Translations under genes and position numbers: made by a program | Source of the DNA: Dryocola sp. LX212 | GTDB lineage: Bacteria; Pseudomonadota; Gammaproteobacteria; Enterobacterales; Enterobacteriaceae | Direction of reading: 5' to 3' | Assembly: GCA_041504365.1 (NCBI GenBank) | Contig: CP167917.1 | Location: forward strand, 3,658,001 to 3,722,000 | Length of the DNA stretch: 64,000 nt | Part shown: positions 38,695-62,701 of the stretch, piece after piece | Numbering within the stretch: the stretch's first letter is position 1 | Layout: each line of letters starts with the position of its first letter | Notes under the pieces: generated by a model | Databases searched by the model: none | Told to the model about the DNA's origin: nothing | Seen by the model: only the letters and a program-made list of their open reading frames with translations

Positions 38695-40248
38695 TTAAGC
38701 GCTGGCCACCGGCTTTTGCTCCGTCTTCACCTGCGCGTTTTCCAGCATACGACGCACCGGCACAATCAGAACTAACAGCACCGCCGCGCAGATCAGCAGC
38801 GCAACGGAACAGCGGGCGAAGAGATCCGGCAGCATGTCCAGCTGGTCGGCCTTAACGTGCCCGCCAATCAGGCCCGCCGCCAGGTTACCCAGCGCGCTGG
38901 CGCAGAACCACAGCCCCATCATCTGGCCGCGCATTCTTTCCGGGGCCAGCAGCGTCATGGTCGCAAGCCCAATCGGGCTCAGGCAAAGTTCGCCGAGCGT
39001 CAGCATCAGGATGCTTCCCACCAGCCAGAACGGCGATACGCCTGCCCCGCCGCTGTTCAGCACGTTCTGCGCGGCCAGCATCATGATCCCAAAGCCTGCG
39101 GCGGCACACAAAATGCCGATCACGAACTTGGTGATGCTGCTCAGACGCACGTTTTTCCGCGCCATTGCCGGCCATGCCCAGCTAAACACCGGCGCCAGCA
39201 GGATAATAAACAGGGCGTTAATCGACTGGAACCACACGGCTGGAATTTCAAAGTCGCCAATCATACGGTTGGTGTAGTCGTTGGCGAACAGGTTAAACGA
39301 GGTTGGCTTCTGTTCAAATGCTGACCAGAAGAATGCGGCTGAGACCAGCAGGATAAAGCACACCAGCAGCCTGGCGCGCTCTTTGCGGTTCAGCCCGGCA
39401 AACACAAACAGATAGATAAAATACAGGGCCACCGAGGCGGCAATCACATAGACCAGCACGCTGGCAACCGCCACGGGGTTAACCACAATCACGCCCTGTG
39501 CAATAAGCGTCACGATTACCGCCACGCCAACCGCCAGCGCCAGCAGCCAGGCCCCGACCCCGTTCTTCTTCGCCACCGGGTTGTTCCAGGTTGAATCCAG
39601 GCCGACCTCAGCGTCGTAGCGTTTCATCGCCGGGACGGCAAAGAGGCGGAAGATGACCAGCGCCACCAGCATCCCAATACCGCCGATGCCAAAGCCCCAG
39701 TGCCAGCCGTGAGTTTTTATCAGCCAGCCGGAAATCAGCGGCGCGATAAACGAACCCATGTTAATGCCCATATAAAACAGTGAGAAACCACCGTCGCGGC
39801 GCGCATCGCCTTTTTTGTACAGCGTCCCTACCATCACCGAAATACAGGTTTTGAAGAGGCCGGAGCCGAGAACGATAAACATCAGGCCGATGAAGAACAG
39901 GCTGTCGCCCAGCATGGCGGACAGCGCTATCGACAGATGGCCGAGGGCGATCAGTATCGAACCGTACCACACCGCACGCTGCTGGCCGAGCCAGTTATCC
40001 GCCAGCCAGCCGCCGGGAAGCGCTGCCAGATACATGCTGCCAGCGAAGATCCCGACGATGGCCGAGGCGTTTTCGCGCGCCAGCCCCATACCGCCGTCGT
40101 AAACGGTCGCCGCCATAAACAGGATCAGCAGCGGGCGAATGCCGTAGAACGAGAAACGCTCCCACATTTCGGTAAAGAACAGCGAGCCCAGAGGATAAGG
40201 ATGGCCGAAGAAAGTTCGACCTTCGTTTTTATTAACAGAGGAATGCAT
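38695..40248 (-). CDS. Proton-dependent oligopeptide transporter (POT/PTR2 family)
   Basis: A 517-residue MFS peptide symporter. The start at 40248 (MHSSVNKNEGRTFFGHP) is preceded by GGAG at ideal spacing; an upstream ATG at 40287 adds 13 residues without a ribosome site. The family proton-coupling motif ExxERFxxY is seen as EMWERFSFYG, followed by about 14 hydrophobic helices. It is of the Dtp group, but which of DtpA-D it corresponds to cannot be decided here. Confidence 0.88.
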   Translation of the reverse strand: MHSSVNKNEGRTFFGHPYPLGSLFFTEMWERFSFYGIRPLLILFMAATVYDGGMGLARENASAIVGIFAGSMYLAALPGGWLADNWLGQQRAVWYGSILIALGHLSIALSAMLGDSLFFIGLMFIVLGSGLFKTCISVMVGTLYKKGDARRDGGFSLFYMGINMGSFIAPLISGWLIKTHGWHWGFGIGGIGMLVALVIFRLFAVPAMKRYDAEVGLDSTWNNPVAKKNGVGAWLLALAVGVAVIVTLIAQGVIVVNPVAVASVLVYVIAASVALYFIYLFVFAGLNRKERARLLVCFILLVSAAFFWSAFEQKPTSFNLFANDYTNRMIGDFEIPAVWFQSINALFIILLAPVFSWAWPAMARKNVRLSSITKFVIGILCAAAGFGIMMLAAQNVLNSGGAGVSPFWLVGSILMLTLGELCLSPIGLATMTLLAPERMRGQMMGLWFCASALGNLAAGLIGGHVKADQLDMLPDLFARCSVALLICAAVLLVLIVPVRRMLENAQVKTEQKPVASA

Positions 40249-40990
40249 AAAATCTCCAGCGAGGTAGGTCGTTGTGTCTGTAAGCAATGAAATATCCGGC
40301 GGCTGGGGGAAGATGCCGCTCTCTAACAGTCGCTCACGTATTATTTAACCATTTGATAACTGAACGGTGGTTTTGTCTAGTGCCAACCCGAACACTTTAA
40401 GTTGAAAAGTCGACAATCGTCTCTTTTTATAGATTTTCTGTCGGCTGCGCGGGGATAGACTTTGACATTATGCAGGAGGATCGCATCATGTCCCAAAAGA
40501 TCCTGCGTCGGCGGTGGCAGGCCTCTCCTTATAAAACCGTAAACCCTCCAAAGTTAAGCGGTACAGTAAAGTTTAATCTCACCCCGATTTCTAAGTGATT
40601 GCTCGATCTTCGCTACCCATTTTTCAGGACAAGGGTAAACCCGGCTTTCGGTACTGATCCGGTTCGGAGATACGCGGCGGATTAACCGATGCAATGATTT
40701 AACATGCGCTATTCAACATGACCTGACTGTTTTTCCCGTTCGGAATTCAACATCATCGGCAATTTGTCGATAAGTCGCCTTATACATCCTTGGATCCTCT
40801 GGTTGATAACATTCACGCACGATGCCGTAGCTCAGTCGGTTGCGGAGGTAATTCCCCATCTTTAGCTGAGTGGAGTCAGTCCATCATCCGCATTCATGAG
40901 TCTGCCAAATAAGGGCAATCAGGGGTGCTAAATAATTAACGCTGACAACTCAGATATGATTGAACGGCAAACGTAACAGAGGGTGTAATC
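40249..40990. other. Backbone-to-island transition, no assured gene
   Basis: A 742-nt stretch between the POT transporter and the hydrolase remnant. It holds the transporter promoter, a small open frame with a good ribosome site (40488-40598) and a weak 48-codon leftward frame (40713-40859) with HTH-like residues YRQIADDVE but no good ribosome site. Base composition becomes more AT-rich across it. I find no copy of the tRNA-Gly end that marks the other end of the accessory region. Confidence 0.5.
40488..40598 (+). CDS. Possible 36-residue small protein
   Basis: ATG at 40488 is preceded by AGGAGG at 9-nt spacing, unusually good for a chance frame, and the frame runs to TGA at 40598. The product is basic at the N terminus (MSQKILRRRWQASPYK) and ends LTPISK. 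Not recognised; it may be a leader peptide or a remnant. Confidence 0.35.
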   Translation: MSQKILRRRWQASPYKTVNPPKLSGTVKFNLTPISK

Positions 40991-42060
40991 TTGAAGACAA
41001 TCTTAAAAACGCTGGCCATCTGCGTAATGGCGGGTGGTTTGGTGGCTCAGTCGGTATACGCCGAGCCGCTGGTCATTCAGGAACAGGGAAGTTTTTCTGC
41101 TGGTGGCACCGTCATCACCGCACCAGGAACATTTGACGCGAAAAAGCCGCTGGATTCAGCTGGCCAAACCTATCATGGCGATCATGCCTCAGTGTTCTAC
41201 CAAATTCCGGAAAATCCGCATAAATACCCTATCGTCATGCTGCACGGCGCAGGTCAGTTCTCCCGTACCTGGGAAAGTACTCCGGATGGTCGTGAAGGTT
41301 TCCAGAACATATTCCTGCGTCGTGGATTCTCAACCTATCTTGTCGATCAGCCACGCCGGGGCAGCGCCGGGCGCACGACGGTAGAAGGTACGGTTACGCC
41401 AAAACCAGATGAGCAGATGTGGTTCAACCAGTTCCGCGTTGGCGTGTGGCCAGAGTATTTTAAGGGCGTTCAATTCTCTCACGACAAAAAAGCACTGAAT
41501 CAGTATTTCCGTCAGATGACCCCAAATACCGGGCCGTTTGATATCAATGGTATCTCTGATGCGATGTCCGCAGTAGTGGATAAATCCGGCCCGGCGATCC
41601 TCTTCACCCACTCTCAGGGGGGCGGACCAGGCTGGTATACGGCGATGAAAAACGACAAGGTCAAAGCCATTGTCGCCTTTGAGCCTGGAAGCAGCTTTGT
41701 CTTCCCGGAAAAAGAACTCCCTGCCCCTATGCGAAGTGCATTCGACACGCTGAAAGGTGAGCCTGTGCCAATGGAGCAGTTTATGGCACTGACCAAAATC
41801 CAGATTCTGATTATTTATGGCGATAACATACCGGATAAGCCTGTCGCCATGCCCGCGCAGGACAGCTGGCGCGTACGTCTGGCGATGGCTCGCGAGTGGC
41901 GTGACGTGACGTGGTGAATAAGCATGGCGGGGATGTGACGGTAACGCATCTGCCAGAAGTGGGAATCAAAGGGAATACCCACTTCCCGTTTTCTGACCTC
42001 AATAATGTGCAGATTGCTGATTTAGTGAGTAAATTCCTGAAAGAGAAAGATCTGCAATAG
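40991..42060 (+). pseudogene. Exported alpha/beta hydrolase, frameshifted by a pentamer duplication
   Basis: The frame from 40991 encodes a signal peptide (cleavage after VYA, about residue 24) and an alpha/beta hydrolase with the nucleophile elbow THSQGG (S208) and acidic residue in AFEPGS (E231). It stops at 41917 after 308 residues. Removing one of the tandem GTGAC units at 41901-41910 restores a frame that continues through VVNKHGGDVTVTHLPEVG and GNTHFPFSDLNN to TAG at 42060, supplying the missing catalytic histidine and last helix. So the gene is inactivated, or conceivably phase-variable. Start codon by annotation is TTG/ATG-like at 40991 with GAGGG upstream. Confidence 0.85.
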
Positions 42061-42472
42061 GAAGAGCCAGTATTGAGCCTTCACTAGTGAAGGCTCAATA
42101 TAAACATCAGTTTTATCAAAAAATAAAATGAGAACGTGACGGTCTACTTTGAGCGAAAAGCGGAAGTTTGCTTTCAGGTAACCTAACCCGCATACCAGAG
42201 GATCGCTAAAAGAGAATGGTTCGTTTAAGGGGTATATTTACACCGACGTCGTCGGTGAGAATGAAAAGACATCCATAAAGACTAAAATCGTCATCAGATG
42301 CCTGGCATATGGAAATGTGTCACCTATCCGAATTTCTCTCTATGTCACTGAAGATCAAAAAAAGTCAAAGCAAGATTGAAAAACCGCGTATGCGGCTTTT
42401 CTTTAATGCAGAAGGGTAGAGAGATTTACGCCTTTCGGATCAACAGCAAAGAGGAGAGTTATGAGCAATAGG
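42061..42472. other. Intergenic region downstream of the hydrolase remnant
   Basis: No gene is supported. It contains the 30-bp palindrome at 42071-42100 and a weak CCGC/GCGG hairpin followed by TTTT near 42400, which could end transcripts from either side. Confidence 0.55.
42071..42100. terminator. Perfect 30-bp palindrome, likely bidirectional terminator
   Basis: The sequence reads identically on both strands (arms TATTGAGCCTTCACT), begins 10 nt after the last codon of the hydrolase remnant and would form a 13-15-bp hairpin; only a moderate T stretch follows. Confidence 0.6.
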
Positions 42473-42784
42473 TCATTTGTTGGTATGTTGAATGAGGGTG
42501 ATAAGCCCCGGAAGCTCTCTTTCTATGTCCTCCCTGCGCAGTACAGCTACTGCCATATTCCCCTTATCAACTACACTAATCAATCCTGTTTCACGTAGTA
42601 CCTTAAAGTGATGTGAGCGTGTGGCACGCGTTACCGTCAACCCAAAAGTGGAACAATGGCGCTCAGCTCCCGGCTGGTCGGCCAGCAATTCACGCACGAT
42701 CAACAGTCTCACCGGGTCAGCCAGCGCTTTGAAAACCTTAATAATATCAAGAGTATTTTGCTCCATAGTGCTCTCTTTTTTCAT
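42473..42784 (-). CDS. ArsR-family transcriptional regulator
   Basis: A winged-helix regulator of 103 residues (97 if the ATG at 42766, MEQNTLDIIKVFKALADP, is used). The core KALADPVRLLIVRELL and RATRSHHFKVLRETGLI is the ArsR helix-turn-helix. It has no CxC metal site; the only cysteine, ERHCS, is not in a metal motif, so it may sense an organic ligand or redox state. Divergent from the afsA-like operon with a shared 194-bp control region containing two palindromes. Confidence 0.85.
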   Translation of the reverse strand: MKKESTMEQNTLDIIKVFKALADPVRLLIVRELLADQPGAERHCSTFGLTVTRATRSHHFKVLRETGLISVVDKGNMAVAVLRREDIERELPGLITLIQHTNK

Positions 42785-42978
42785 GGCAAATCCTAATTTG
42801 TAAGTTCATTACAACATTTTATTGACAAAACTCCTACATATCATCAATCTTAACGAACGTTAGATGGACATCTAACGTATCACGATGCCCATCATCAGTC
42901 GGCGAGTTTAGCCATATCTGACTGCGTCTGGTGGAGCTGTATTCATCCAAGAAAATTGATTGAGGTTACGGGATTTCC
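42785..42978. promoter_or_regulatory. Divergent control region of the arsR-like and afsA-like genes
   Basis: Two inverted repeats: TTGTAA-N5-TTACAA at 42798-42814, next to the regulator start, and a 22-bp site at 42857-42878 with 10-bp perfect arms ACGTTAGATG/CATCTAACGT. A TTGACA at 42822-42827 with a TATCAT about 17 nt on is a plausible rightward promoter, placing the 22-bp palindrome just downstream of the start site, where a repressor would act. Confidence 0.6.
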
Positions 42979-43971
42979 ATGTCTTTTACTGAAAGTGCAG
43001 TCGATGAGTTGATCATCGAGACCGGTTCGTATAACTATCAAAGTACGATACCTAAGTCGTGTGTTCATCGTGCAGCGATAGGGGAGGTTTTTTTAACGGA
43101 CATCAGGAAGATTAACGATAATAAATATATTACTGCTGGATACCTTCCCAAATCTCATATTTACTTTAATGACCTGAACTCTAACGTCACTGGCAAAAAA
43201 GTTTATGATGCAATTCTCCTCCTGGAGATATGTCGCCAGTCCTCTATTTACGTCACACACAATTTCTTTGATGTACCTTATAGTGCTAAGTTTGTATTTG
43301 ATGATGCCGATTTCACATTACTGGAAAGCGAAATAGAGTATAAAGAAAGCTGTTCAAATGTCATCATCGAAGTCAACGTCATTGAACGTAAACACAGAAA
43401 AATGACATTGACCGGCCTTATATTCCAAATGGACATTTATGTGGACGGCAATCTTTGTGCACGGAAAGAGATGAATATTTCATGGATGGAAGTCCTTAAA
43501 TGGAATCGCCTGCGTAGTAATAGGCCCCAAGAATGTTACAATACTATGATTCACCAACGGGCATCAGCTCTCTCTGTGGGCCGCCAGTTGCCGCTGAACG
43601 TCGTGATAAGCAATATCCAGTTGAACAAAGATACAGGTACTACGACGCTGGTCATTGATCAGAATCATCCCTCCATATTCGATCACCATCTGGATCATGT
43701 GCCTGGAATGTTATTAATAGAAGCCTTCAGGCAGACAGCAATAGTCACCATGCAGCACTATTTTGATACATTGAATGACCATCTGGTTATTAGTCGCTAC
43801 AGAATTAACTTTCAACGCTTTTGTGAATTCAACCTCCCTGTGTACTGTCATATTGATGTTGGTAATATATTAAATACAAAAAATGAAGAGCACATCATTA
43901 TTCCAATGATCATTTCTCAGGGCGATAATGTCATCTCGCAGGCTGAGCTAACTGTTACAAACAAAAAATAA
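42979..43971 (+). CDS. AfsA/ScbA-type gamma-butyrolactone (butenolide) biosynthesis protein
   Basis: A 330-residue protein with two AfsA hot-dog repeats. Repeat 1 begins VHRAAIGEVFLTD (residues 29-41) and carries LLLEICRQ (E83, R86, Q87); repeat 2 carries the family signature DHVPGMLLIEAFRQ (D239-Q252). In Streptomyces AfsA condenses a beta-ketoacyl-ACP with dihydroxyacetone phosphate, the committed step to A-factor-type hormones. The Glu/Arg pairs needed in ScbA appear kept. First gene of a four-gene operon (16 nt to the HAD gene). AT-richer than the backbone, so probably acquired. Confidence 0.85.
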   Translation: MSFTESAVDELIIETGSYNYQSTIPKSCVHRAAIGEVFLTDIRKINDNKYITAGYLPKSHIYFNDLNSNVTGKKVYDAILLLEICRQSSIYVTHNFFDVPYSAKFVFDDADFTLLESEIEYKESCSNVIIEVNVIERKHRKMTLTGLIFQMDIYVDGNLCARKEMNISWMEVLKWNRLRSNRPQECYNTMIHQRASALSVGRQLPLNVVISNIQLNKDTGTTTLVIDQNHPSIFDHHLDHVPGMLLIEAFRQTAIVTMQHYFDTLNDHLVISRYRINFQRFCEFNLPVYCHIDVGNILNTKNEEHIIIPMIISQGDNVISQAELTVTNKK

Positions 43972-43987
43972 GACGTAAGCATATCAT

Positions 43988-44644
43988 ATGAAAATAATCT
44001 GGTTTGATTTTGGCGGTGTGCTATCTCCGTCTATCCCTGAACTGTTCGATTCTTATTATGAAAAAACCGGCATCCCTGCGCAGTTGTTACATAAGGCAAT
44101 GAAATCAGTTGCAGATGAAATGAATATGGATGTTCTGGCCCCTATCGAAATAGCAGCGATTACTGAGCAGGAATGGGGAACAAAACTTCGAAAACATCTG
44201 CAGACAATTGCACCAGAGATTGATTTATCAAAAGCCAGACTCGAGCACTTTGGTGAACAATGGTTTGATGGTATTAAGCCTAATCCTCACATGATCGCGT
44301 TATTCCATCAGGTCAGATCTTCCGGCCTGAAAGCCGGTATTCTCACCAATAATGTGGTGGAATGGGAAAGTCACTGGAAGCGCGTTGTGGGTATCACCGA
44401 TCAGGCAGATATTATCATTGATTCCTGCAAGATTGGTTTCCGTAAGCCTCAGTCTGAAATTTTCGTTATTGCAGCCCGTGAGGCCGGCGTCCGGCCTGAA
44501 GAGTGCCTGCTGATTGATGATGTTGAGGATAACTGTTCAGCTGCAAATCAGATGGGCTGGAAGAGTGTCCACTTCCGCGAAAGCGCCAGTGTAGTGGCGC
44601 AAGTCAGTGACTTATTGCTGACAAGGGAGGGCGCGATGATATGA
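43988..44644 (+). CDS. HAD-superfamily hydrolase, candidate butenolide-phosphate phosphatase
   Basis: A 218-residue HAD hydrolase: nucleophile D7 in WFDFGGVL, motif II ILTNN, motif III lysine in GFRKPQSEIF, motif IV LLIDDVEDN, with a helical cap between. The second acidic residue of DxD is Gly, as in YihX-like enzymes. The AfsA product is phosphorylated, so a phosphatase is needed; position 16 nt after the afsA-like gene and 4-nt overlap with the P450 gene suggest this role. That is inference. Confidence 0.8.
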   Translation: MKIIWFDFGGVLSPSIPELFDSYYEKTGIPAQLLHKAMKSVADEMNMDVLAPIEIAAITEQEWGTKLRKHLQTIAPEIDLSKARLEHFGEQWFDGIKPNPHMIALFHQVRSSGLKAGILTNNVVEWESHWKRVVGITDQADIIIDSCKIGFRKPQSEIFVIAAREAGVRPEECLLIDDVEDNCSAANQMGWKSVHFRESASVVAQVSDLLLTREGAMI

Positions 44645-45870
44645 CTCTCTTGACAATATGGCCATCAGTGACGGATATCCCGCATTACGACTGTACCCCA
44701 GGGTACGAAGTGCTGGTTCCGGCAACTTATCAACAGCCGGGTAAAATACGACTTCTCAGCGGACATGAAGCCTGGCATGTCATCAATTATCATGAGGTCA
44801 AAAAAATACTGACCAGCAATGCCTGCCTCCGGGCACCCTCCAACCTGCCTGATGCCCCCAGTATTTTACCGACCCTGACCCCAAAAGATTTACTGCTGAA
44901 TCTTGATTTTCCCCATCATTCACGCATGAAGCGTTTTGTGGCAAAGGATTACAGTGCCAGTAGTCTGGCATGGCTTATTCCTCATACAAAAGATGCGATA
45001 GAAACACTTTGGCATCATGTCAAAGACTACCGGGAATTCGATTTATATCAGGAGGTGCTTGATCCACTGGCAGTGCAAATCAACTGTCTGTTACTGGGGA
45101 TCCCTGTTGAAGAAAAAGATTATTTCCGTGTGTTGAGCGTAACGGTCCAAAAAGCCAGTGCACATAAGGTGGATGAACTTATCACCCGGTTTACGGAATT
45201 GTACGAATATCTTTTCGAACATGTCAGAGGTCTTCGCCCGCACAGTGAAGAGGGGATGATCGCACGATTTATGTCTATGCGGGACAGTTCATCGCCCCCA
45301 TTGAGTGACGAAGAACTTACTGCACTTCTGCTCGGATCATTATTGGGTGGTGACCAGAATACGCTCACGGTAATGACCAAAATATTCTATGCCATGCTGT
45401 TCACTGGCAGCTTATGGAAACAGGTTGTTGCGTATCCAGATACGACAGAGCAGGTGGTGAATGAACTGATCCGCCTGACCAACCTCGGAACTGCATCAGC
45501 CTTCCCGCGTATTTGCTCAGAGCCGGTAGAACTGGCCAGCGTCTGCATCCCGGCCGGCGCGACAATTTATCCGGACGTCTATCTTGCTAACCGTGATCCT
45601 TCAGTTTATGCCGAACCACGGGTTATCGATCCTTTCCGCGATGGACCACGACATTTGCAGTTTGGGTATGGCATGCACCATTGCATGGGCCAGGAACTGG
45701 CAAAACTGGAAATTTGTGCTGCCATCCGGACGATTGCACAGCTTGCCCCTGATTTAAAATTGTCAGCTGAAATCCCGCCAGAAAATTATCAGTGGGATGA
45801 GGGGATCATCCTCCGGAGACCAGCCCAACTTCCGGTGTGTCTTACCGGTATTACAGAAAAGGTTAACTAA
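44641..45870 (+). CDS. Cytochrome P450
   Basis: A 409-residue soluble bacterial-class P450. The haem-binding loop FGYGMHHCMGQELAKLE gives the thiolate ligand C348; the ExxR of helix K is in NELIRL. The helix-I motif reads LGGDQNT, so the usual acid-alcohol pair is replaced by Gln-Asn, followed by Thr. P450 genes are rare in enterobacteria. ATGA overlap with the HAD gene and 1-nt overlap with the exporter gene imply coupled translation. Likely role: hydroxylation or oxidation of the butyrolactone/butenolide acyl chain. No ferredoxin or reductase gene is adjacent. Confidence 0.88.
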   Translation: MTLLTIWPSVTDIPHYDCTPGYEVLVPATYQQPGKIRLLSGHEAWHVINYHEVKKILTSNACLRAPSNLPDAPSILPTLTPKDLLLNLDFPHHSRMKRFVAKDYSASSLAWLIPHTKDAIETLWHHVKDYREFDLYQEVLDPLAVQINCLLLGIPVEEKDYFRVLSVTVQKASAHKVDELITRFTELYEYLFEHVRGLRPHSEEGMIARFMSMRDSSSPPLSDEELTALLLGSLLGGDQNTLTVMTKIFYAMLFTGSLWKQVVAYPDTTEQVVNELIRLTNLGTASAFPRICSEPVELASVCIPAGATIYPDVYLANRDPSVYAEPRVIDPFRDGPRHLQFGYGMHHCMGQELAKLEICAAIRTIAQLAPDLKLSAEIPPENYQWDEGIILRRPAQLPVCLTGITEKVN

Positions 45871-47369
45871 TGCAAACCCAAGCTCTTGAAGCAAAATCTT
45901 CTTCAACCCTCACCCTGCTTTGCATTCTGATCGCGGTGTTTGTGGTTCCGACATCCATTTCAGGCACTGCCATAGCACTGCCCGCCATCAGCGCCAGTCT
46001 GCATCCACAAACGGCATCCCTGCAATGGGTCGTTAATGCATTTAACCTGACTTTTGCCAGTTTTACTCTGGCCTGGGGAGGACTGGCAGATGTCTTTGGC
46101 AGTAAGCGCACATTTGTTACCGGATGCATACTCTATTTCCTCGCCTCCGTGTTATCGTGGTGTGCCGGAAATATCTATGTTCTTGATGCGGCCCGTGCTC
46201 TGGCAGGTATTGGCGGCGCTGCAATATTTTCCTGTGGCAGCGCTATCCTGATCCAGACCTTCAGTGGTGTAAAACGCACACGCGCCTTTGCACTGTTCGG
46301 TACGACGGCCGGGCTGGGAATTACTTTTGGTCCGACGCTCTCTGGCTGGTTGCTGGGTATCGCTGGCTGGCGGGAAATTTTCCTCATCCATGCTCTTTCC
46401 CTGTTTGTCGTGCTGATCCTGAGTACTTCAGTTTCTGGTGCATCAAAGAAAATAGATAAGCTCACTTTCGATTTCTACGGTATCGTACTGTTTATTATTG
46501 CTTTATTCCTGATAATGAGTGGTATTACCCAAGGAGCTGAACTCGGCTGGACCAGCAACACCACAATTATCCAGTTGGGTCTGGGATGTAGTGTTTTCCT
46601 TGCATTCGTGGTCGCAGAGAAAAAAGCCGCCAGCCCGGTTATCAATTTTGCTCTGTTGGGAAATCAATTTTTCCTGTCTTTAATTCTGATCCCGGTAGTG
46701 GCAAGTTTCTGTTTTGTTACGCTGTTGACCTGGTTCCCGACCTGGCTGATTGCGGTTAAAAACCTCTCACCTGTGGAGTCGGGGCTGGTTATGTTAGCCC
46801 TGACTGCGCCGGTGCTTGTTTTACCAATAATCGCCGGCAAACTCGTAACCCGCGGCATTCCAGCCAGTTTCCTGCTGATCGTCAGCCTGTTCCTGTTTGT
46901 CGGCGGGCTGGGTCTCCTTTGGATCTTCAGTCATGATGTGATGCCACTGCCACGGATCCTGCTCTGTCTGTTGCTGGTCGGAGCCGGAATGGGGCTTTCT
47001 GCTGGCCTTGTTGACGGGATTGCCCTTAGCGCCGTTGAGCCTCAGGAAGTCGGACGAGCGGCAGGGATCCTTAATACGTTCAGACTGGGCAGTGAGGCTA
47101 TCGCCGTAGCAGTCTACGGCTCGCTGATGTCAGGCAGTATTTCCCGCTTCCTTTCATCGCAACCGACACCAGAGGGTATGAACGCTAAGCAGTATCTTGC
47201 CGATGTGGTATCAGGCAGTACGCCTGCGGCAGTACGGGGGGACTGGTTTGAAAGCATCTATACCCTGGCTTTCACTCATACCCTGCAGGTAATGCTGATC
47301 ATTGCTCTGATTATTTCACTCTCAGTGATATTCATGTTACAAAATCGTTCCGTTGGAGCAGACCATTAA
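45870..47369 (+). CDS. MFS exporter, DHA2 family (14 helices)
   Basis: A 499-residue drug:H+ antiporter-2 type transporter. The pattern of about fourteen helices, WVVNAFNLTFASFTLAWGGLAD and the motif C-like GLGITFGPTLSGWL fit EmrB/QacA-like exporters. The start overlaps the P450 stop (TAATG). As last gene of the operon it is the likely exporter of the product or gives self-protection. A stem-loop follows at 47423-47453. Confidence 0.87.
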   Translation: MQTQALEAKSSSTLTLLCILIAVFVVPTSISGTAIALPAISASLHPQTASLQWVVNAFNLTFASFTLAWGGLADVFGSKRTFVTGCILYFLASVLSWCAGNIYVLDAARALAGIGGAAIFSCGSAILIQTFSGVKRTRAFALFGTTAGLGITFGPTLSGWLLGIAGWREIFLIHALSLFVVLILSTSVSGASKKIDKLTFDFYGIVLFIIALFLIMSGITQGAELGWTSNTTIIQLGLGCSVFLAFVVAEKKAASPVINFALLGNQFFLSLILIPVVASFCFVTLLTWFPTWLIAVKNLSPVESGLVMLALTAPVLVLPIIAGKLVTRGIPASFLLIVSLFLFVGGLGLLWIFSHDVMPLPRILLCLLLVGAGMGLSAGLVDGIALSAVEPQEVGRAAGILNTFRLGSEAIAVAVYGSLMSGSISRFLSSQPTPEGMNAKQYLADVVSGSTPAAVRGDWFESIYTLAFTHTLQVMLIIALIISLSVIFMLQNRSVGADH

Positions 47370-48038: not shown

Positions 48039-49043
48039 TTGACAAATAAGAAGAAAATTACCATCAGAGACGTCGCAGGGCTGGCCGGAGTATCCATCGG
48101 TGTAGTGTCACGGGTATTGAATCCCGGTACTGGTTCAGTATCTGAACGCACACGCCTTCGCGTTTGCGAAGCAATGCAAACGCTTAATTACACCCCTCAG
48201 AGTTCCGCCAGAGAATTAAAAACAAATCTGAATAATACTATTGGCTTAGTAGTGGCAGACATTGCCAATGACTTTTTTTCTGAGATATCAGATCTTATCG
48301 TACGGCGGGCCAGAGAACTGGATATGAATGTCATTCTTGTGACGACTCAGGAAGATCCGCTGCTTGAGCGTGAGAGTCTGCGGATGCTGATGCAAAAGCG
48401 GGTCAAAGCCATCATAGCCACGCCAACCAGTGCGAACAGTGATATCTGGCAATCCATCGGTGACATGGGTATTTCTGTTGTCTTTATTGACCGCTTTCTT
48501 GAAGACGTTAAGCATGCCAGCGTCATTGGTTTTAATAACCACGACTCTGCATGTGAAGCCACCCTTTATCTTGCCCGGCAGGGACACAAGCGTATAGCCT
48601 GGATCAGCGGCCCACTCAATACCTCAACATCTCTACAGCGGCTGAATGGCTATCAACAAGGTCTTAAAGAGAGCGGTTTAGCGTGGGATAAGCAATATAC
48701 GGTGGTGAAGAATTTTCGCGACCCCCTCGCCAGCCAGGCACTGGATGAGCTGCTTGAGCTTGAGGTCCCCCCCACGGCAATCATTATTGGTAATACCTCA
48801 ATTGCACCGGTCATCATGTCACGGATCCGCGAACTGAAGATTTCTGTTCCTGACGATTTATCGCTGATTGTTTATCATGACAGCCACTGGACCCGCCTAC
48901 TGTCGCCTTCCATCAGCGTCATCAAGCACCCTCTCGAAACGCTGGCAGAAAAAGCAATTCAGAGCTTGTCTGGCGAACAACAGAACGTATTCGAATTAAC
49001 AAGCGTACTAATAAAACGCGAGAGCGTCTCAACGATTAAATAG
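48039..49043 (+). CDS. LacI-family transcriptional regulator
   Basis: A 334-residue LacI-type regulator. HTH in residues 7-30 (ITIRDVAGLAGVSIGVVSRVLNPG) with a sugar-binding core. The start is TTG at 48039; a stop codon lies in frame 15 nt upstream and no ATG fits before the HTH. The ribosome site is weak. It is convergent with, and overlaps by 8 nt, the dehydrogenase/transporter operon on the other strand, which it probably controls through the palindrome at 52800-52825. Confidence 0.85.
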   Translation: MTNKKKITIRDVAGLAGVSIGVVSRVLNPGTGSVSERTRLRVCEAMQTLNYTPQSSARELKTNLNNTIGLVVADIANDFFSEISDLIVRRARELDMNVILVTTQEDPLLERESLRMLMQKRVKAIIATPTSANSDIWQSIGDMGISVVFIDRFLEDVKHASVIGFNNHDSACEATLYLARQGHKRIAWISGPLNTSTSLQRLNGYQQGLKESGLAWDKQYTVVKNFRDPLASQALDELLELEVPPTAIIIGNTSIAPVIMSRIRELKISVPDDLSLIVYHDSHWTRLLSPSISVIKHPLETLAEKAIQSLSGEQQNVFELTSVLIKRESVSTIK

Positions 49044-49920
49044 AGAGTCCATTCAGGCGCTGTATTTGCCGGATAATACCGCAATGATCTAAATCGCCAT
49101 CACCCGCGGCAACCATCTGGCTGAACAAAATATTGACCTTATCAGTTAACGGCAATATCAAATCAAGCTGTTCCGCCAACGCCATGATATTTTTTGTATC
49201 TTTGAGCTGCCATGCCGCTGAACCGCGCGTAGAAAAGTCACTTTCTACCATGCGTTCACCGTGTTGTTGTAGCAAGGTGGAATCAGCAAACCCGCCCAAC
49301 AGCGCCTCCCGGACCTTAATCGGATCGGCCCCGCCCCGCTGGGCAAATGTAAAGGCCTCTGACAATAAACATAACGTCCCGGCGACAATAATCTGGTTTG
49401 CAAGTTTGGTGAGCTGTCCTGAACCAACCTCCCCCACCCGGGTAACCTTACCAAGGTGAGCAAGCAGAGGACGAAGCCGATCGATACTTTGCTTCGCCCC
49501 TCCTGCCATCAATGACAACGTACCCTTCTCCGCGCCTTTCGTACCGCCAGACACGGGCATGTCCACATAATCAAGTTTTGCGCGTCGAGCCTGAAGTTGC
49601 TGTTCAACCACCTTCTCCGGGGTGAGCGTGCTCATCATGATAATGATCGAATGGTGAGCAATGAGTGACAATCTTGTCTCGGTGAAAATCACCTCGTCGC
49701 AGGCATCGGCATCACTCAGAAGACAAATGATAACGTTGTTCCCGGACAATAACTTTTCGACTGAATCGACACATTTGACACCAAAGGCTTCCAGACCGAG
49801 CGCTTTATCCTTTGTCCGGTTCCACGCCTCAACCCGACAACCAACTGCAGCCAGACGACGCGCTACCGCTTGCCCCAGTAACCCCGTCCCGATCAAACCT
49901 ACTCGTGTAGTGGTATCCAT
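49036..49920 (-). CDS. NAD(P)-binding 3-hydroxyisobutyrate dehydrogenase-family enzyme
   Basis: A 294-residue beta-hydroxyacid dehydrogenase. Start at 49920 (MDTTTRVGLIGTGLLGQAVA) has AGGAAA upstream; a longer frame to 49965 is less likely. Rossmann motif GxGxxG at residues 10-15, substrate motif DMPVSGGTKGAEKGTL, and the catalytic lysine in GQLTKLANQ. Relatives act on tartronate semialdehyde, hydroxyisobutyrate or four-carbon acid sugars. Last gene of the MFS-SAF oxidoreductase-dehydrogenase operon. Confidence 0.85.
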   Translation of the reverse strand: MDTTTRVGLIGTGLLGQAVARRLAAVGCRVEAWNRTKDKALGLEAFGVKCVDSVEKLLSGNNVIICLLSDADACDEVIFTETRLSLIAHHSIIIMMSTLTPEKVVEQQLQARRAKLDYVDMPVSGGTKGAEKGTLSLMAGGAKQSIDRLRPLLAHLGKVTRVGEVGSGQLTKLANQIIVAGTLCLLSEAFTFAQRGGADPIKVREALLGGFADSTLLQQHGERMVESDFSTRGSAAWQLKDTKNIMALAEQLDLILPLTDKVNILFSQMVAAGDGDLDHCGIIRQIQRLNGLSI

Positions 49921-49974
49921 AAATATTTCCTGAATAACCCGCGACGACGCTTGCCGCCGCGGCAAAGTTAACGT

Positions 49975-51330
49975 CTATAAACCCGAGAGGCTTACCATTT
50001 GTTTACGCAATTCGACGATATCCAGATTATTTTCAAATTTGACATCGGAGAAGCGTATCGCTTTGTCTTTGGCGACATCTTTGACCAGCTTGACGTGATG
50101 CGCCAGCCCCATTGGCAACAGGTCCTGATCCACGCTGATAGTGGCTGGTAGCGCATTCGCCCAGACGGTAAAGCCACCTTCACCATCCAGCATTTCCCCT
50201 GCCTTGAGATCGCGTTTTGCCGTTGCCACCGCATCTCCCCTGAAGCTCAATGCTGAACCTGTGGCTTCATTACGCAGCACGGCAGAGAGAATGCTGATGC
50301 TGGTTTCCAGTCCAATCAAATGGAAAGGACGCCACATTGAGGCGTACCAGCCGCTGGGATCGGTGAGCAGCCCATATTGCTTGAAGCAGGCTCGGCTATA
50401 CTCATCGCGGGCCTTAAAGGTGACAAAAACACCGTAACGAATATTATTGAGCACTTCACGGCCATCTGGCTCTTGGCTTGCTGCAATATCCACCAGGCCA
50501 CTCCGGCTCAGTCGCCCGCCATCCGCCTCGGGGGAGAATACGCGGGCCAGGTCATGCACCCCTGCGGGAGGAAAAGCCAGCCCATTATCAGGACAATCCA
50601 GCCCTGTTGCGTTGGCCACAGCGGCCATTTCAATCGCCGCTTTGGTACCATCGGTGAAAGAGTTGTACATTTTAGGATTAAAGTCGCCTGCAGCGACCTC
50701 TTCTTCTGACCAGCCAAAAAATCCCCAAACGGTATCTGGCGTCGAGTAACGGTAACGAGGCTCAAAATTCATCCCTTTACCAGCGGCAACAATTTCAAAC
50801 CCGCAGGCACGAGCCCAGTCCACCAGTTCACAAATAATTGCGGGCTGATCGCCGTATGCCATACTGTAGATCACACCTTGTTGCCGTGCCCGTTCAGCGA
50901 TTAGCGGCCCGCACAAAACATCAGCCTCTACATTCACCATGATCACATGTTTGCCATGTTCAACAGCGTGCAGCGCATGGCGAGTTCCAGCCAGTGGATG
51001 CCCCGTTGCCTCAACTATGCAATCAATCTGCTCACAGCGGAATAACAGCTCCGCATCCTCCACCACACAGGTCGATCCATCCCGTAAGGCAATGTCGATA
51101 TTTTCAGCGCGGTATTGCGTTTCATGCCAGCCGACGCGAGCCAACGCGTGGCGGGCTTTATTCACATCGAGATCGGCAACGGCCACCACCTGCAATCCTT
51201 CCAGATGACGCAACTGGGCAAGTACCATAGATCCAAATTTTCCGGCGCCGATGATGCCGACCCGAATCGGCTGCGCAGAACCTGATTTCACGGCACAAGC
51301 GCGCTCATTTAACAATGCTGCTAAATTCAT
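49975..51330 (-). CDS. Homoserine-dehydrogenase-like oxidoreductase with C-terminal SAF domain
   Basis: A 451-residue protein. An N-terminal Rossmann fold (IGAGKFGSMVLAQL, about residues 27-40) resembles homoserine/MocA-type oxidoreductases, with VEATGHPLAGTRHAL and a central catalytic region. The C-terminal part (about 365-445) resembles SAF/antifreeze-type domains (KAGEMLDGEGGFTVWANALP). Such proteins occur in acid-sugar catabolic operons. The reaction is not known to me. 54 nt upstream of the dehydrogenase gene. Confidence 0.72.
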   Translation of the reverse strand: MNLAALLNERACAVKSGSAQPIRVGIIGAGKFGSMVLAQLRHLEGLQVVAVADLDVNKARHALARVGWHETQYRAENIDIALRDGSTCVVEDAELLFRCEQIDCIVEATGHPLAGTRHALHAVEHGKHVIMVNVEADVLCGPLIAERARQQGVIYSMAYGDQPAIICELVDWARACGFEIVAAGKGMNFEPRYRYSTPDTVWGFFGWSEEEVAAGDFNPKMYNSFTDGTKAAIEMAAVANATGLDCPDNGLAFPPAGVHDLARVFSPEADGGRLSRSGLVDIAASQEPDGREVLNNIRYGVFVTFKARDEYSRACFKQYGLLTDPSGWYASMWRPFHLIGLETSISILSAVLRNEATGSALSFRGDAVATAKRDLKAGEMLDGEGGFTVWANALPATISVDQDLLPMGLAHHVKLVKDVAKDKAIRFSDVKFENNLDIVELRKQMVSLSGL

Positions 51331-51366
51331 TTTTTACTCCTTGATAGGATGTTTAAGGTGTCGACA

Positions 51367-52731
51367 TTAACGCCAGCCAGCAACCTGACGGCGACTTTTA
51401 CTCAGGAGATAAATCAGTAACGGTGAAAAAAGCACAAGTATCGATAACAGGTAGAGACCGTTCTGTGATTTACCGGTAAGGGAAATGGTGAGTCCGACCA
51501 GGAAGGGGCCAAAAAAGCCGCCAATATTGCCGATAGAGTTGATTAGTGCCAGGCCACCGGCTGACCCCTGGTTCGTGAGGAAAGAGGCGGGTAAGGTATA
51601 GAATGTCGGCACACAGGCAAGCATGCCGACGGTAGAAAGCGTCAGCCCCAGCATAGATATTACTGGCGAGTCGCTGATGGCCGCGACCACAAACCCGACG
51701 GAAAACAGTATTGAAGGGAGGATAAAGTGCCAGGTCCGTTCATTCATTTTATCGGAATGGTTTGACCACCAGCACATAGCGACAGCGCCAACGATGTAGG
51801 GAATGGTACCCAGCAGACCAACCACAGTATCTGAATAGTCAAAGCGTTTAATAAACTGCGGCATCCAGAAGCCAAGGCCGGTCAGTCCAATGACCGTGAA
51901 GAAGTAAGCAAGCCCCAGGGTCCAGACGCGGCGATCTTTAAACATCGCTTTCAGGCCTGAGTGACCCACCGTCAGCGTATCCCGCTGTTCTTTTTCCATC
52001 AGTTTCTGATAAGCATCGCGCTCCTCAGGACTCAGCCATGAGGCACTGGCTGGTGTATCAGTGAGGTAAAGAAATACCGCGACCGACAGGATAATCGGCG
52101 GAAAGCCTTCAATCAAAAAGAGCCATTGCCAGCTTTCCAGGCCGCCCACCTGATGAAAATTATCAAGAATGTAGCCTGAAATCGGATTGGCGATGATGGC
52201 CGCCAGAGGAACACCTAAATAGTAAATGGAGAAAACCCGAGCCAGTTCTTTCCTGGGGAACCAAGTGGTCAGATAGAAAACGATGCCCGGAGCAAGACCC
52301 GCTTCCGCCACGCCTAATAAAAACCGCAAGATACTGAGACTAACAGCCCCCTGTGCGAACGCCATGGCCATGGAAATCACGCCCCAGGTAATCATTATGC
52401 GGGCTAACCAAAACCGTGCGCCATAACGAGCCAGTAAGACGTTGCTGGGCACCTCAAACAAAATATAACCAAATGAGAAGATGCCGACGGCAAACCCGAA
52501 TTGTTGCGGCGTTAAACCCAGGAACTGGTTCATGGTTAACGCCGCCATGCCGATATTCGAACGATCAATGAACGCCAGCAGATACATCATCAATATCAAA
52601 GGCATTAAACGCCAGCGCGCTTTAGATATTGCCCTGCTTTCCAGAGGCGAGATATCAGCATGCTGAGGTATCGGCATTACGCCAGCATCAGTGCCGGCAA
52701 GTGTATGGTTGTACTCTTCTACATGTTTCAT
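51367..52731 (-). CDS. MFS transporter, anion:cation symporter (ACS) family
   Basis: A 454-residue importer of the GudP/ExuT/tartrate-permease type, about twelve helices, with family segments PLILMMYLLAFIDRSNIGMAA and PSNVLLARYGARFWLARIMI. Start chosen at 52731 (MKHVEEYNHTL). It is first in a three-gene operon with two oxidoreductases and should import an organic acid or sugar acid. A strong LacI-type operator lies 69 nt upstream. Confidence 0.85.
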   Translation of the reverse strand: MKHVEEYNHTLAGTDAGVMPIPQHADISPLESRAISKARWRLMPLILMMYLLAFIDRSNIGMAALTMNQFLGLTPQQFGFAVGIFSFGYILFEVPSNVLLARYGARFWLARIMITWGVISMAMAFAQGAVSLSILRFLLGVAEAGLAPGIVFYLTTWFPRKELARVFSIYYLGVPLAAIIANPISGYILDNFHQVGGLESWQWLFLIEGFPPIILSVAVFLYLTDTPASASWLSPEERDAYQKLMEKEQRDTLTVGHSGLKAMFKDRRVWTLGLAYFFTVIGLTGLGFWMPQFIKRFDYSDTVVGLLGTIPYIVGAVAMCWWSNHSDKMNERTWHFILPSILFSVGFVVAAISDSPVISMLGLTLSTVGMLACVPTFYTLPASFLTNQGSAGGLALINSIGNIGGFFGPFLVGLTISLTGKSQNGLYLLSILVLFSPLLIYLLSKSRRQVAGWR

Positions 52732-52799
52732 GATGAATCCCAGCCGTGTTGTAACTACCGGAAATATCACGGAAAATACATTAATACCGCGATGTGCCT

Positions 52800-53902: not shown

Positions 53903-55117
53903 ATGGCGATCAAGGGCCAGGAGTATCTTTATTTAAGAAAAGATGGGATCTGGATGTTTCAGATCTTCGTTCCAAGGTATATGCGGCATCTGTTCAACGA
54001 TAAACGCCTCTACAACCGTAGTACGGGAACACGCGATATCACCACCGCACGACATTTCAGGAATCACCTTCTGGTAGAGTTCAACAACCTGAAAGACCAG
54101 TACAAGCCGGATACGGAAGACAGACGCATACAAAATGCGATCAACTCGCTGCACTCTGAAATCAAGAAGAACAAAAACCGCCCGAAACTAGATGAACAAT
54201 CCCGTTCTATTCCCCATTTGTGCCTATTACGGGATGAGTACGCCACGGCATACAAGGATCGGCGTTCACTCTCCACCCTCAGTAAATCAGCCAGGGCTGT
54301 AGAAGTGTTCTTGAAGAGTATCGGGAAGGTAGACATTACGATTGATAAGATCGGGAAACGGCTTGCTGCTGATTTCATTGAAGACCAACAGAAACGCAAC
54401 GTAGCAGGGCAAACCTTGCAAAATTGGCTCACCTGCTTGGGGAGTTTGTACGAGTTTGCAAAGCGTCGTTATGACGGTATAGCGTCAGATAACCCGTTTC
54501 ACGGTCATCAGCTCGAAGCACGGCGCACTATTCAAAATTATCAGCCGTTTGAATGGGATCAGCTAACCGCTTTGCTCAAAGCAGCAGACGACGAATTACG
54601 CGATGTGATCTTGATAGGGTTGTTTTCTGGTGCAAGGCTCGACGAAATCGCCAGCTTGAAGAAAGAAGAGATCGTAATGGTCGAAGGTATCCGCTGTTTT
54701 TATATCAGCAAAAGTAAAACTAAGGCAGGGGTGCGTTATGTGCCGATCCACAGCCTGTTAATGGGGATTGTTGATAAGCATCTAAGCCACAGTTACGGCG
54801 AATACCTATTCCCACACGCTAACAAGATTAACCGTAAAGACGGCAAGAAAGGGCCGTTCTACTCTCAAGCGTTCACGAGACTACGTAATCAAGCGCTGCC
54901 AGCCGCTACAGACCGTCAATGCTTCCACAGCTTACGAGGCCACTTTATAACGTGCCTGGATCGCGCTGGCGTACGTGAGCAAAGAATTGCAGAAATTGTG
55001 GGCCACTCAGCCCAGGCGAAGACAGAAAGCCTTAAAACGTACTCGCAAGGTGCAGGGATGAAAGAACTGTCTGGATATGTAGAAATGGTGGACTATCCAG
55101 AAATCATCTTGCCTTAA
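53903..55117 (+). CDS. Tyrosine recombinase / site-specific integrase
   Basis: A 404-residue phage-type integrase. N-terminal arm-type domain YLYLRKDGIWMFQIFVPRYM (DUF6538-like), core-binding region about residues 105-190, catalytic domain with R245 (FSGARLDEIA), lysine in SKTKAGVRYV, H342xxR345 (HSLRGHF), H368 (VGHSA) and Y380 (TYSQG). All catalytic residues are kept. It starts 92 nt inside the attachment site and reads into the element, so it should catalyse integration at the tRNA-Gly gene. Confidence 0.93.
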   Translation: MAIKGQEYLYLRKDGIWMFQIFVPRYMRHLFNDKRLYNRSTGTRDITTARHFRNHLLVEFNNLKDQYKPDTEDRRIQNAINSLHSEIKKNKNRPKLDEQSRSIPHLCLLRDEYATAYKDRRSLSTLSKSARAVEVFLKSIGKVDITIDKIGKRLAADFIEDQQKRNVAGQTLQNWLTCLGSLYEFAKRRYDGIASDNPFHGHQLEARRTIQNYQPFEWDQLTALLKAADDELRDVILIGLFSGARLDEIASLKKEEIVMVEGIRCFYISKSKTKAGVRYVPIHSLLMGIVDKHLSHSYGEYLFPHANKINRKDGKKGPFYSQAFTRLRNQALPAATDRQCFHSLRGHFITCLDRAGVREQRIAEIVGHSAQAKTESLKTYSQGAGMKELSGYVEMVDYPEIILP

Positions 55118-55193
55118 ACGAGAAAGTAGCCTCCTGGCGAAGTTACAAAATATGTCTAAGATAGAATTGGACAATCAAAACAGGCGAATAATA

Positions 55194-55439
55194 ATGAAAA
55201 TATTATATACTGCAATGCTCTTAGGTTTTTGCATCTCGACTGCTAATGCGCAAGTTACGTGCAGAACCGATAACTACGGCACAGAACGTTGTTCGGGAAC
55301 TGATTCAGGTGGTCAACGTGTAAACACGACCAGTCAAACAGATTCTTATGGAACAACTCGCACGACTGGCTCCGCTGGCGGTAGAGATGTGCGTGAAACT
55401 TGCCGCACAGACGCATATGGAACTACCCGCTGTAACTGA
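55194..55439 (+). CDS. Small secreted repeat protein of the element
   Basis: An 81-residue exported protein. Start at 55194 gives a clean signal peptide (MKILYTAMLLGFCISTANA) then QVTC. The mature part is three repeats of the form xxTDxYGTxR: CRTDNYGTERC, SQTDSYGTTR and CRTDAYGTTRC, with cysteine pairs in repeats one and three. It follows the integrase on the same strand and is the only other rightward gene of the element, so it is likely cargo. Function unknown. Confidence 0.7.
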   Translation: MKILYTAMLLGFCISTANAQVTCRTDNYGTERCSGTDSGGQRVNTTSQTDSYGTTRTTGSAGGRDVRETCRTDAYGTTRCN

Positions 55440-55450
55440 CCCCCAAAACG

Positions 55451-55471
55451 AAAAAGGGGCGTTAAGCCCCT
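55451..55471 (-). terminator. Terminator of the leftward structural operon
   Basis: AGGGGC/GCCCCT stem with 5-nt loop followed on the minus strand by TTTTTCG, directly at the stop codon of the Dit-like gene. Confidence 0.85.
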
Positions 55472-56103: not shown

Positions 56104-56126
56104 AGCTCCTTATAAATAAGGCGGGA

Positions 56127-57983: not shown

Positions 57984-58174
57984 TACGCCCCCTTCTTAAT
58001 AAAATGAAATAGCGCTTTTTCGACACTCTCGCCTCTCTGAATACGTTTACTCACACCTTGATAGCTAATTTCAAGCATTCTGCAACATTGTTTAAGGTTG
58101 ATTATATCTGTTGCACTATCGCCTGTTAGATTAAAATGAAAGTCTCTGTCGTTACTTTGCAGTATAATTTGCAT
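57983..58174 (-). CDS. Small phage protein with GISYxxVxxRIxRG-type motif
   Basis: A 63-residue protein. LEISYQGVSKRIQRGESVEKAL resembles the short helix-turn-helix repeat found in many phage and homing-endonuclease proteins. Its place before the tape-measure gene is that of a tail assembly chaperone, but the sequence argues for DNA binding. Coupled (TAATG) to the tape-measure-like gene. Confidence 0.6.
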   Translation of the reverse strand: MQIILQSNDRDFHFNLTGDSATDIINLKQCCRMLEISYQGVSKRIQRGESVEKALFHFIKKGA

Positions 58175-58297
58175 ACTTACTCCTTTGAAAATAAAAAAAG
58201 GGCAAGGGCTGGCGCATTTGCTTTGCGTGATCCAGTTCCCTACGCCCTGTTTAAACTGTCTGATTATTTTATAGCGGTTCAGAATCCCGCTTGCGCA

Positions 58298-59326: not shown

Positions 59327-59342
59327 TATTACTGTCCTTGTA

Positions 59343-60817: not shown

Positions 60818-60820
60818 TTT

Positions 60821-61042: not shown

Positions 61043-61048
61043 TTATTG

Positions 61049-61490: not shown

Positions 61491-61543
61491 ATGATGTTCC
61501 CTTGATTGTATATTTATAAATTGCTGTAGATTTCTATTTAGAT

Positions 61544-61828: not shown

Positions 61829-61839
61829 TGTTCCTCCTG

Positions 61840-62680: not shown

Positions 62681-62701
62681 ATGGTTTTCTCCTTCTGTGG
62701 T

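Follow-up and report, generated by a model that had tools for sequence, protein, structure and literature searches.

We consider it about an even call that a five-gene cassette in the window (the whole 64,000-nucleotide stretch of Dryocola sp. LX212 DNA analysed here) is a horizontally moved, self-contained unit for producing, sensing and exporting a butenolide derived from fatty acids; on this reading the compound serves mainly as an allelochemical (antimicrobial or directed at competitors) and the exporter gives immunity to it. Four of the genes form an operon on the forward strand, predicted to encode an AfsA-type phosphorylated-butenolide synthase (42979..43971; 330 aa), a HAD phosphatase (43988..44644; 218 aa), a MycG-like cytochrome P450 (44641..45870; 409 aa) and a DHA2/EmrB-like MFS exporter (45870..47369; 499 aa). 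The tight coupling described in the first-pass annotation is borne out by the open reading frame coordinates (a 16-nt gap between AfsA and HAD, a 4-nt overlap between HAD and P450, and a 1-nt overlap between P450 and MFS) and by Pfam matches above cut-off; all four frames are intact by an open reading frame check. Because the AfsA domain match is significant and the same four-gene order recurs at further loci, the annotation survives on both points. It overlooked, however, a divergent, predicted ArsR-like winged-helix repressor gene on the reverse strand (42473..42784), conserved with the operon, and a palindromic operator (42859-42876).

The operon proteins and their predicted pathway

The AfsA identity and two hot-dog repeats ascribed to the synthase are both recovered: Pfam AfsA (PF03756) matches in 2 stretches in a profile search (133.8 bits against a cut-off of 24; 5e-39), and the predicted structure has two helix-in-sheet halves (pLDDT 70). 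E83/R86/Q87 and H236/D239/H240/Q252 are invariant across 10 aligned AfsA rows. The earlier pathway logic of phosphatase, P450 and exporter also stands, with every domain over its Pfam cut-off: Hydrolase (PF00702) at 62.4 bits, p450 (PF00067) at 64.2 bits and MFS_1 (PF07690) at 142.8 bits. The exporter reaches 151 bits with the EmrB-type efflux model TIGR00711, below its cut-off of 230.2. In the HAD protein, D7, T120, K153 and D177-D178 are invariant in 5 rows, the Rhodococcus fascians partner included. Its motif I is DxG instead of DxD; the closest solved relative is the glucose-1-phosphatase YihX (46.7 bits), and YihX-like enzymes also have DxG at this motif. In Cedecea colo, AfsA and HAD are fused in one frame, and the related metagenome-assembled genome likewise lacks the AfsA stop. 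The closest solved relative of the P450 is MycG (221 bits using a family profile), and the heme motif FGYGMHHCMG and I-helix GGDQNT are found in 5/5 aligned sequences. A P450 I-helix usually carries an acid-alcohol pair; here Q-N stands in its place, so the reaction may be unusual.

A characterised AfsA-type domain converts a 3-keto thioester and DHAP to a butenolide phosphate of this type, according to the covered passages of PMC7756379. By analogy, we infer that the AfsA protein of the window would couple DHAP to a beta-ketoacyl thioester supplied by fatty acid synthesis, closing a phosphorylated 2-acyl-3-hydroxymethylbutenolide. The HAD enzyme would then take off the phosphate, the P450 would oxidise either the acyl chain, in the manner of SrrO, or a carbon close by, and the MFS pump would export the product. 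Among the five conserved cassette genes there is no reductase giving a saturated gamma-butyrolactone; of the two products first named, butyrolactone or butenolide, the butenolide therefore fits better.

The ArsR-like gene and its presumed operator

ArsR homologues 51-76% identical adjoin the cassettes read. The ArsR kind is the best-scoring model for the window protein despite scores under the curated cut-offs (HTH_20, 22.8 against 27; metalloregulator ArsR NF033788, 41.7 against 55). Its presumed site is the palindrome ACGTTAGAT-GGAC-ATCTAACGT at 42857..42878, a dyad operator at a divergent promoter, of the ArsR/SmtB type by sequence. The window's arms match at 9/9 positions, equalled by 0/300 shuffles. 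The site is found in 15/15 loci, with at most 1 mispair in the 7-bp core in 13/15: four core pairs are complementary in all 15 and the remaining pairs in 13-14, and at one pair 2 loci carry an A-T for C-G double change. In 2/5 Gilliamella the operator is decayed. The exact operator is a single site in the window's genome, at the cassette; it occurs once per genome, in the cassette only, in 11/14 genomes, the others having one 1-mismatch site and two none. When each locus was scanned by itself for palindromes with 9-bp arms, the score was equalled by 0-8 of 300 shuffles in 4/15 loci and by more than 5% (55-206 of 300) in 11/15, and in several loci the best-scoring palindrome was another one than the shared operator. 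The operator case rests on the site being shared, on its single double change and on the counts per genome. A TTGACA hexamer (42822..42827, forward strand) may be the -35 element of the operon promoter; 15/15 loci have TTGAC[A/T] at a distance of 31-37 bases upstream from their operator. The window shows no clear -10, and a consensus promoter scan called no promoter for the operon.

We propose that ArsR, on this operator between the divergent genes, would repress the operon until the product or an intermediate binds; production and efflux would therefore rise together.

Distribution, loss and the choice between weapon and hormone

The operon was said to be AT-richer than the backbone, and its four genes have a GC content of 0.394-0.511 against 0.558 in window positions 1-38000. 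The integrase noted in the island is likewise present, a tyrosine integrase at 53903-55117 (PF00589). When 40200-42400 was compared with five congeners, only the first 269-281 bases matched, plus one 45-base match in one of them (G004); the window therefore carries an insertion relative to them from about 40.5 kb.

All five genes occur at eight loci: the window, C. colo, Yokenella, four Trabulsiella-group loci and one further genus. The exporter was found in 10/392 Enterobacteriaceae genomes and 5/35 genomes of the Gilliamella genus. These 15 genomes all carry ArsR; 8 are complete and 7 lack both HAD and P450, with an intact AfsA missing as well from 6 of those. Conversely, the pump is present in 9/9 genomes with an AfsA of the cassette clade. 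In G155 and in five Gilliamella, ArsR and the pump are present with no working synthesis genes. Since the Gilliamella loci retain remnants of AfsA (4/5) and of P450 (two clear, two weak), we take this to be loss, not original absence. Because neither G155 nor G741 carries a remnant, loss in these two is presumed rather than observed. The Gilliamella loss may be one or a few events followed by inheritance, so the 7 genomes are not 7 events. In Gilliamella, ArsR and the pump are under constraint while the AfsA remnant drifts: dN/dS is 0.135-0.25 for the pump and 0.04-0.12 for ArsR (one ArsR pair is identical), and for the AfsA remnant 1.2 between G. mensalis and G. bombicola and 0.31-0.50 in the other pairs. 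In the complete cassettes of Yokenella and Trabulsiella, the synthesis genes are constrained (dN/dS 0.056-0.14).

In the pump tree, the window pump clusters with those of other genera (the window/Yokenella/G191 group), the C. colo pump falls outside, and G155 has no firm placement. For that reason, and because the outgroups lie too far away (branch lengths 4.9 and 6.5-8.1), no root is given. The pump of T. odontotermitis 01 entered the tree with a single unknown residue, caused by an N base and not by a stop. Wider searches found no DNA match to 42979-46900 in E. coli genomes, no AfsA in phages, and only three short plasmid matches, in the MFS part. One AfsA match lies on a Klebsiella plasmid and one in Mycetohabitans; in a 369-genome sample across the class, AfsA was found only in the window itself, and G066 gave a weak AfsA match (6.6e-4). 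Other enteric AfsA genes (G032, G039, G002, G047, G227, G250) and those of G473 and G725 in the Gilliamella genus were set aside for their different neighbourhoods.

We favour the view that several relatives which keep ArsR and pump but have no working synthesis genes point to a weapon with its immunity more than to a hormone, although such retention would also follow from a pump exporting other drugs. A diffusible hormone seems to us unlikely; on that reading the butenolide would be a population signal of the SRB/A-factor style, governing other functions, and the exporter would only release it. The enzyme set is that of the Streptomyces rochei SRB locus, in the passages covered of PMC7564063, and a product-sensing ArsR would give autoinduction. 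However, an ScbR/ArpA-type receptor over 150 bits was found in 0/8 genomes (best 76.8), a search without a positive control, as it also found 0/14 in control genomes. The confinement of the exact operator to the cassette argues in the same direction, as does the keeping of ArsR and exporter by 7/15 genomes without HAD and P450, so the term "hormone" in the first-pass annotation is weakly supported. Somewhat less probable still is that ArsR and MFS form a generic, broad-range efflux pair and that AfsA, HAD and P450 were inserted between the two, the product being incidental. The pairs without working synthesis genes agree with this, as do ArsR homologues, up to 56% identical, on other replicons, one of which was inspected and adjoins no MFS gene. 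The Gilliamella remnants, however, indicate loss, and C. colo is complete though its pump lies outside the window's group.

It is doubtful that AfsA uses another acceptor or gives another product, such as a furan acid or acyl ester, with no butenolide made. The synthase scores 187.5 bits with NCBIfam ScbA_BarX (NF041195), just below the equivalog cut-off of 200, shares 23-31% identity with six alignment rows outside the cassette clade, and has relatives that also feed the methylenomycin furans (PMC7756379, passages covered); against this, the catalytic-looking residues are invariant and a phosphatase is fused or adjacent, as one would expect with a phosphorylated product. That the cassette was acquired recently and is silent, serving no function today in the strain of the window, is very improbable: the low-GC island is missing at this place in congeners and the window pump groups away from C. 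colo, but all frames are intact, the operator palindrome is perfect and the synthesis genes are constrained in Yokenella and Trabulsiella.

Returning to the allelochemical reading, we offer a tentative extension, possible but short of even: the ArsR repressor may itself be the direct butenolide receptor, giving one-operon autoinduction separate from the ArpA/ScbR systems, and bee-gut and enteric bacteria that do not produce the compound may keep receptor and pump as eavesdropping immunity against butenolide-producing neighbours in insect guts. If the cassette works as proposed, AfsA butenolide chemistry would pass from actinomycete hormone biology into the ecology of Gram-negative gut bacteria. 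The host would be genetically easy and the pathway compact, with four genes and a repressor predicted to respond to a ligand. The pattern of makers and of non-makers with the pump makes "signal or weapon" directly testable.

Comparison with known systems

Enteric AfsA or "butyrolactone" loci are already in print, listed without characterisation in the passages covered: antiSMASH labels "butyrolactone" in Gilliamella and Snodgrassella (PMC9598484) and in a medfly Klebsiella (PMC9453069), and one gut isolate is labelled NRPS-butyrolactone (PMC11354742). The five-gene circuit was not found in the open-access literature among the matches listed. In Pantoea ananatis, the AfsA of ICEPan is likewise on an enterobacterial mobile element, with antibiosis proposed, but is accompanied by SsfD amidotransferase and SsfC ACP homologues in a cluster different from ours (PMC4458695, passages covered); the G227 AfsA neighbourhood resembles that locus.

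The nearest actinomycete locus found is on R. fascians pFiD188, in the order AfsA-HAD-MFS-monooxygenase. AfsA (32%), HAD (31%) and MFS (30%) are consecutive and followed by an oxygenase; an FAD monooxygenase and an aldo/keto reductase stand where the window has its P450, and TetR and MMPL genes are nearby, and the 22 listed features include no ArsR.

The parallel to S. rochei drawn in the first-pass annotation, an AfsA homologue with a phosphatase and a P450, proves correct: by description rather than sequence, srrX, the phosphatase gene srrP and the P450 gene srrO lie close together, and SrrO oxidises C-6' (PMC7564063, passages covered). The window's operon holds, side by side, the synthase, phosphatase and P450 genes of an SRB/SAB-type set. 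Unlike the SRB locus as listed there (srrX, srrP, srrO, srrG, srrH), it lacks the dehydrogenase srrG and the thioesterase, has ArsR in place of the receptor/repressor srrA, and includes an exporter. In the Streptomyces ansochromogenes SAB system (SabA, SabP, SabD), a synthase plus a phosphatase are similarly required, as the covered part of PMC7756379 describes; the window operon has no counterpart of the ketoreductase SabD and adds a P450 and an exporter. A C-1' ketoreductase or dehydrogenase of the SRB/SAB type is absent from the five conserved cassette genes. According to the passages covered, the AfsA-like domain of Burkholderia gladioli gladiostatin/gladiofungin is a PKS release domain, whereas the window AfsA is free-standing in a cassette without a PKS. 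The two nevertheless share Gram-negative AfsA chemistry, and gladiostatin/gladiofungin, with phosphatase candidates and an unreduced 2-acyl butenolide, is a bioactive product rather than a hormone.

The cassette, its carriers and its movement

Four tightly coupled genes, each with a Pfam match, run on the + strand of the window, which lies in a 4.7-Mb Cedecea-like genome whose genus includes Cedecea colo ZA: AfsA (42979-43971), a HAD phosphatase (43988-44644), a P450 (44641-45870) and an MFS exporter (45870-47369). A 16-nt gap separates AfsA from HAD, and the later junctions overlap. The first-pass annotation had read these four as an actinomycete-style butyrolactone operon; its gene set stands, and the Pfam search bears out the AfsA assignment, but it did not mention the divergent ArsR-like gene (42473-42784), the fifth of the cassette. 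Against the ScbA/BarX equivalog the window AfsA scores 187.5 bits, 12.5 under the cut-off. Between a hydrolase gene and ArsR lies a 30-base self-complementary stretch (42071-42100; its own reverse match), hairpin or terminator-like. Next to the cassette, Pfam matches mark LacI regulator, 3-hydroxyisobutyrate-dehydrogenase-like, DRL oxidoreductase and MFS genes (48039-52770), which look like a sugar-acid use cluster, and at 53903-64000 a tyrosine integrase is followed by low-GC genes, phage-like by eye.

An alignment of three AfsA sequences, scanned against genome contigs, located ten loci. The order ArsR, AfsA, HAD, P450, MFS is conserved, as had been anticipated for the operon genes, in seven rechecked loci besides the window (eight complete loci in all): in Yokenella regensburgei, Trabulsiella guamensis and two T. 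odontotermitis genomes (proteins 66-77% identical to the window's; one MFS only 478 aa), in G191, from another genus (60-73%), in G315, from the Trabulsiella group, and in C. colo (38-56%). AfsA and HAD form a single 584-residue frame in C. colo; in G005, a related MAG, the AfsA frame has no stop of its own and continues into the P450 tail, HAD and most of the P450 being lost.

The exporter tree places the window with Yokenella and G191 (support 96/96) and the other two Cedecea-genus rows as a separate pair (100/99), and the window AfsA is 60-67% identical to those of other genera against 38-39% to its congeners; these relationships indicate that the cassette has moved horizontally. Flanks differ among the six loci inspected, apart from right-hand genes common to two Gilliamella loci and a LysE-like gene, named by eye, that adjoins ArsR in Yokenella (L009, 8620-9252) and T. 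odontotermitis (L011, 8600-9232). Given this common neighbor, the cassettes of the latter two may sit at a single site of insertion.

The cassette is rare. AfsA of its kind occurs in 9 of 392 Enterobacteriaceae genomes, whereas any AfsA match at 1e-10 occurs in 12, three being of other kinds. Across an order-wide sample of 394 genomes, matches came from the window and five Gilliamella-genus genomes (three N-terminal remnants, one one-domain AfsA and one distant full-length AfsA), and in a class-wide sample of 369 from the window alone. The exporter is found in 10/392 Enterobacteriaceae, in 3/275 genomes order-wide (all already among the known carriers) and in 5/35 of the Gilliamella genus.

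The presumed operator and the enzymes

Between the ArsR and AfsA genes lies a palindrome, GTTAGAT-GGAC-ATCTAAC, presumably the ArsR operator, with a site in 15/15 loci compared. Each of the seven pairs in its core is complementary in 13-15 of the 15 loci. One of these pairs is A-T in the window and G191, C-G in 11 loci and broken in G. mensalis and G. bombicola; neither outer pair is conserved (8/15 and 5/15). Exact matches to GTTMGATN4ATCKAAC are confined to the cassette in 11 of 14 genomes; the G005 cassette has one mismatch, and the cassettes of G579 and G615 have no such site even at one mismatch. Outside the cassette, one-mismatch sites number 19, against 18 with a reversed-pattern control. 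A second copy with one mismatch adjoins the first in C. colo, where two ArsR-type palindromes stand in tandem in the ArsR/AfsA interval (L014, ~9850-9915). A TTGAC[A/T] hexamer lies 31-37 bases upstream of the operator in 15/15 loci; a consensus promoter scan of the window found none for the operon. ArsR has an invariant Cys44 within an ERHC motif in 9/9 rows.

The residues H30, H60, D77, E83, R86, Q87, H236, D239, H240, Q252 and E283 are common to ten aligned AfsA sequences of enteric and actinomycete origin. The AfsA profile matched no solved structure at E 0.01; the predicted model (mean pLDDT 70.3, pTM 0.73) has two helix-in-sheet halves, which we read as a putative double hot-dog. HAD retains D7, T120, K153 and D177-178, also in the Rhodococcus fascians partner. 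The P450, whose nearest match is MycG, has GGDQNT in its I-helix, invariant in five relatives, in place of AGYEST in MycG. This helix usually carries an acid-alcohol pair, which is thus replaced in the cassette enzyme.

Presumed sensor and pump without synthesis genes

All 15 exporter-bearing genomes (10 Enterobacteriaceae and 5 Gilliamella) have ArsR. All genes are present in eight; HAD and P450 are absent from the other seven, namely G005 (AfsA retained), the five Gilliamella and G155, in which exporter and ArsR were found but no synthesis gene. G155, outside the 14-genome count, has an exact operator between ArsR and the pump. N-terminal AfsA remnants persist in 4/5 Gilliamella, followed directly in G. 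mensalis and G. bombicola by an out-of-frame C-terminal P450 remnant; two further Gilliamella give weak P450 matches (E 0.03-0.08). By simple Nei-Gojobori counts, interspecies dN/dS in Gilliamella is 0.135-0.25 for the pump and 0.04-0.12 for ArsR (one pair identical), and, over the few sites that the AfsA remnant offers, 0.31-0.50 in five pairs and 1.2 for G. mensalis versus G. bombicola. Between the complete cassettes of Yokenella and Trabulsiella it is 0.056 for AfsA, 0.085 for HAD, 0.14 for P450 and 0.13 for MFS; synonymous sites are saturated in most comparisons with the window.

A pump for its own signal would be useless to a cell that does not make it, while immunity would be useful; we read the retained pump as probable immunity. 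Retention in non-makers would also be expected of a general drug pump. As for the hormone proposed in the first-pass annotation, ScbR-type receptor matches in the eight cassette genomes peak at 76.8 bits, below the cut-off of 150 (13/14 controls likewise give only matches below it, 0/14 passing), the exact operator is single and non-makers keep the pump. Together these features favor, over such a hormone, an allelochemical that is regulated locally, induced by its product and paired with immunity, although ArsR-mediated autoinduction would make even an allelochemical signal-like inside its producer. T. odontotermitis inhabits termite guts and Gilliamella bee guts, and the pattern of makers and non-makers may reflect gut ecology.

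Known systems and the likely product

AfsA in enterics is already known, from Pantoea ananatis ICEPan (PMC4458695) and from antiSMASH "butyrolactone" labels in Gilliamella and Snodgrassella (PMC9598484) and medfly Klebsiella (PMC9453069); the available parts of these papers contain no characterization of the loci. The five-gene circuit is described in none of the matches listed by open-access literature searches. Other AfsA neighborhoods were also seen. In the window's genus, a one-domain AfsA (258 aa, PF03756 50 bits; L021, 7882-13187) lies near a different HAD and a thiolase-like gene; L053 and L023 are similar, making a second type of AfsA-HAD neighborhood in enterics. An unusual arrangement retained in two genera (L022, 8318-10606; L024, 6773-10424) joins an AfsA-like protein to TrpF-like and TrpA-like genes (PF00290 in L022) and, by eye, an FAD-type oxidoreductase. 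AfsA with ACP, asparagine-synthase-like, TPP-enzyme and PEP-mutase-like genes, some named by eye (L050, 6811-11727), resembles the ICEPan locus as described in PMC4458695. On the plant-pathogen plasmid pFiD188 of R. fascians, TetR, MMPL, hydrolase, AfsA, HAD, MFS, FAD monooxygenase and aldo/keto reductase genes are consecutive (L025, 7659-17975), a build parallel to the enteric cassette.

As far as the available text of PMC7756379 describes, an AfsA-like domain joins 3-keto thioesters to DHAP by condensation, and a phosphatase then leads to a 2-acyl-3-hydroxymethylbutenolide. The suggested parallel to Streptomyces rochei SRB agrees with the accessible part of PMC7564063, where synthase, phosphatase and P450 genes occur together and C-6' oxidation is assigned to SrrO. 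The five conserved genes include no C-1' ketoreductase, so an unreduced acyl butenolide would be the likelier product. Gladiofungin, from an insect-associated Burkholderia, is an antifungal butenolide according to the part of PMC7756420 consulted, and gladiostatin is an unreduced acyl butenolide like the product that we propose for the cassette.
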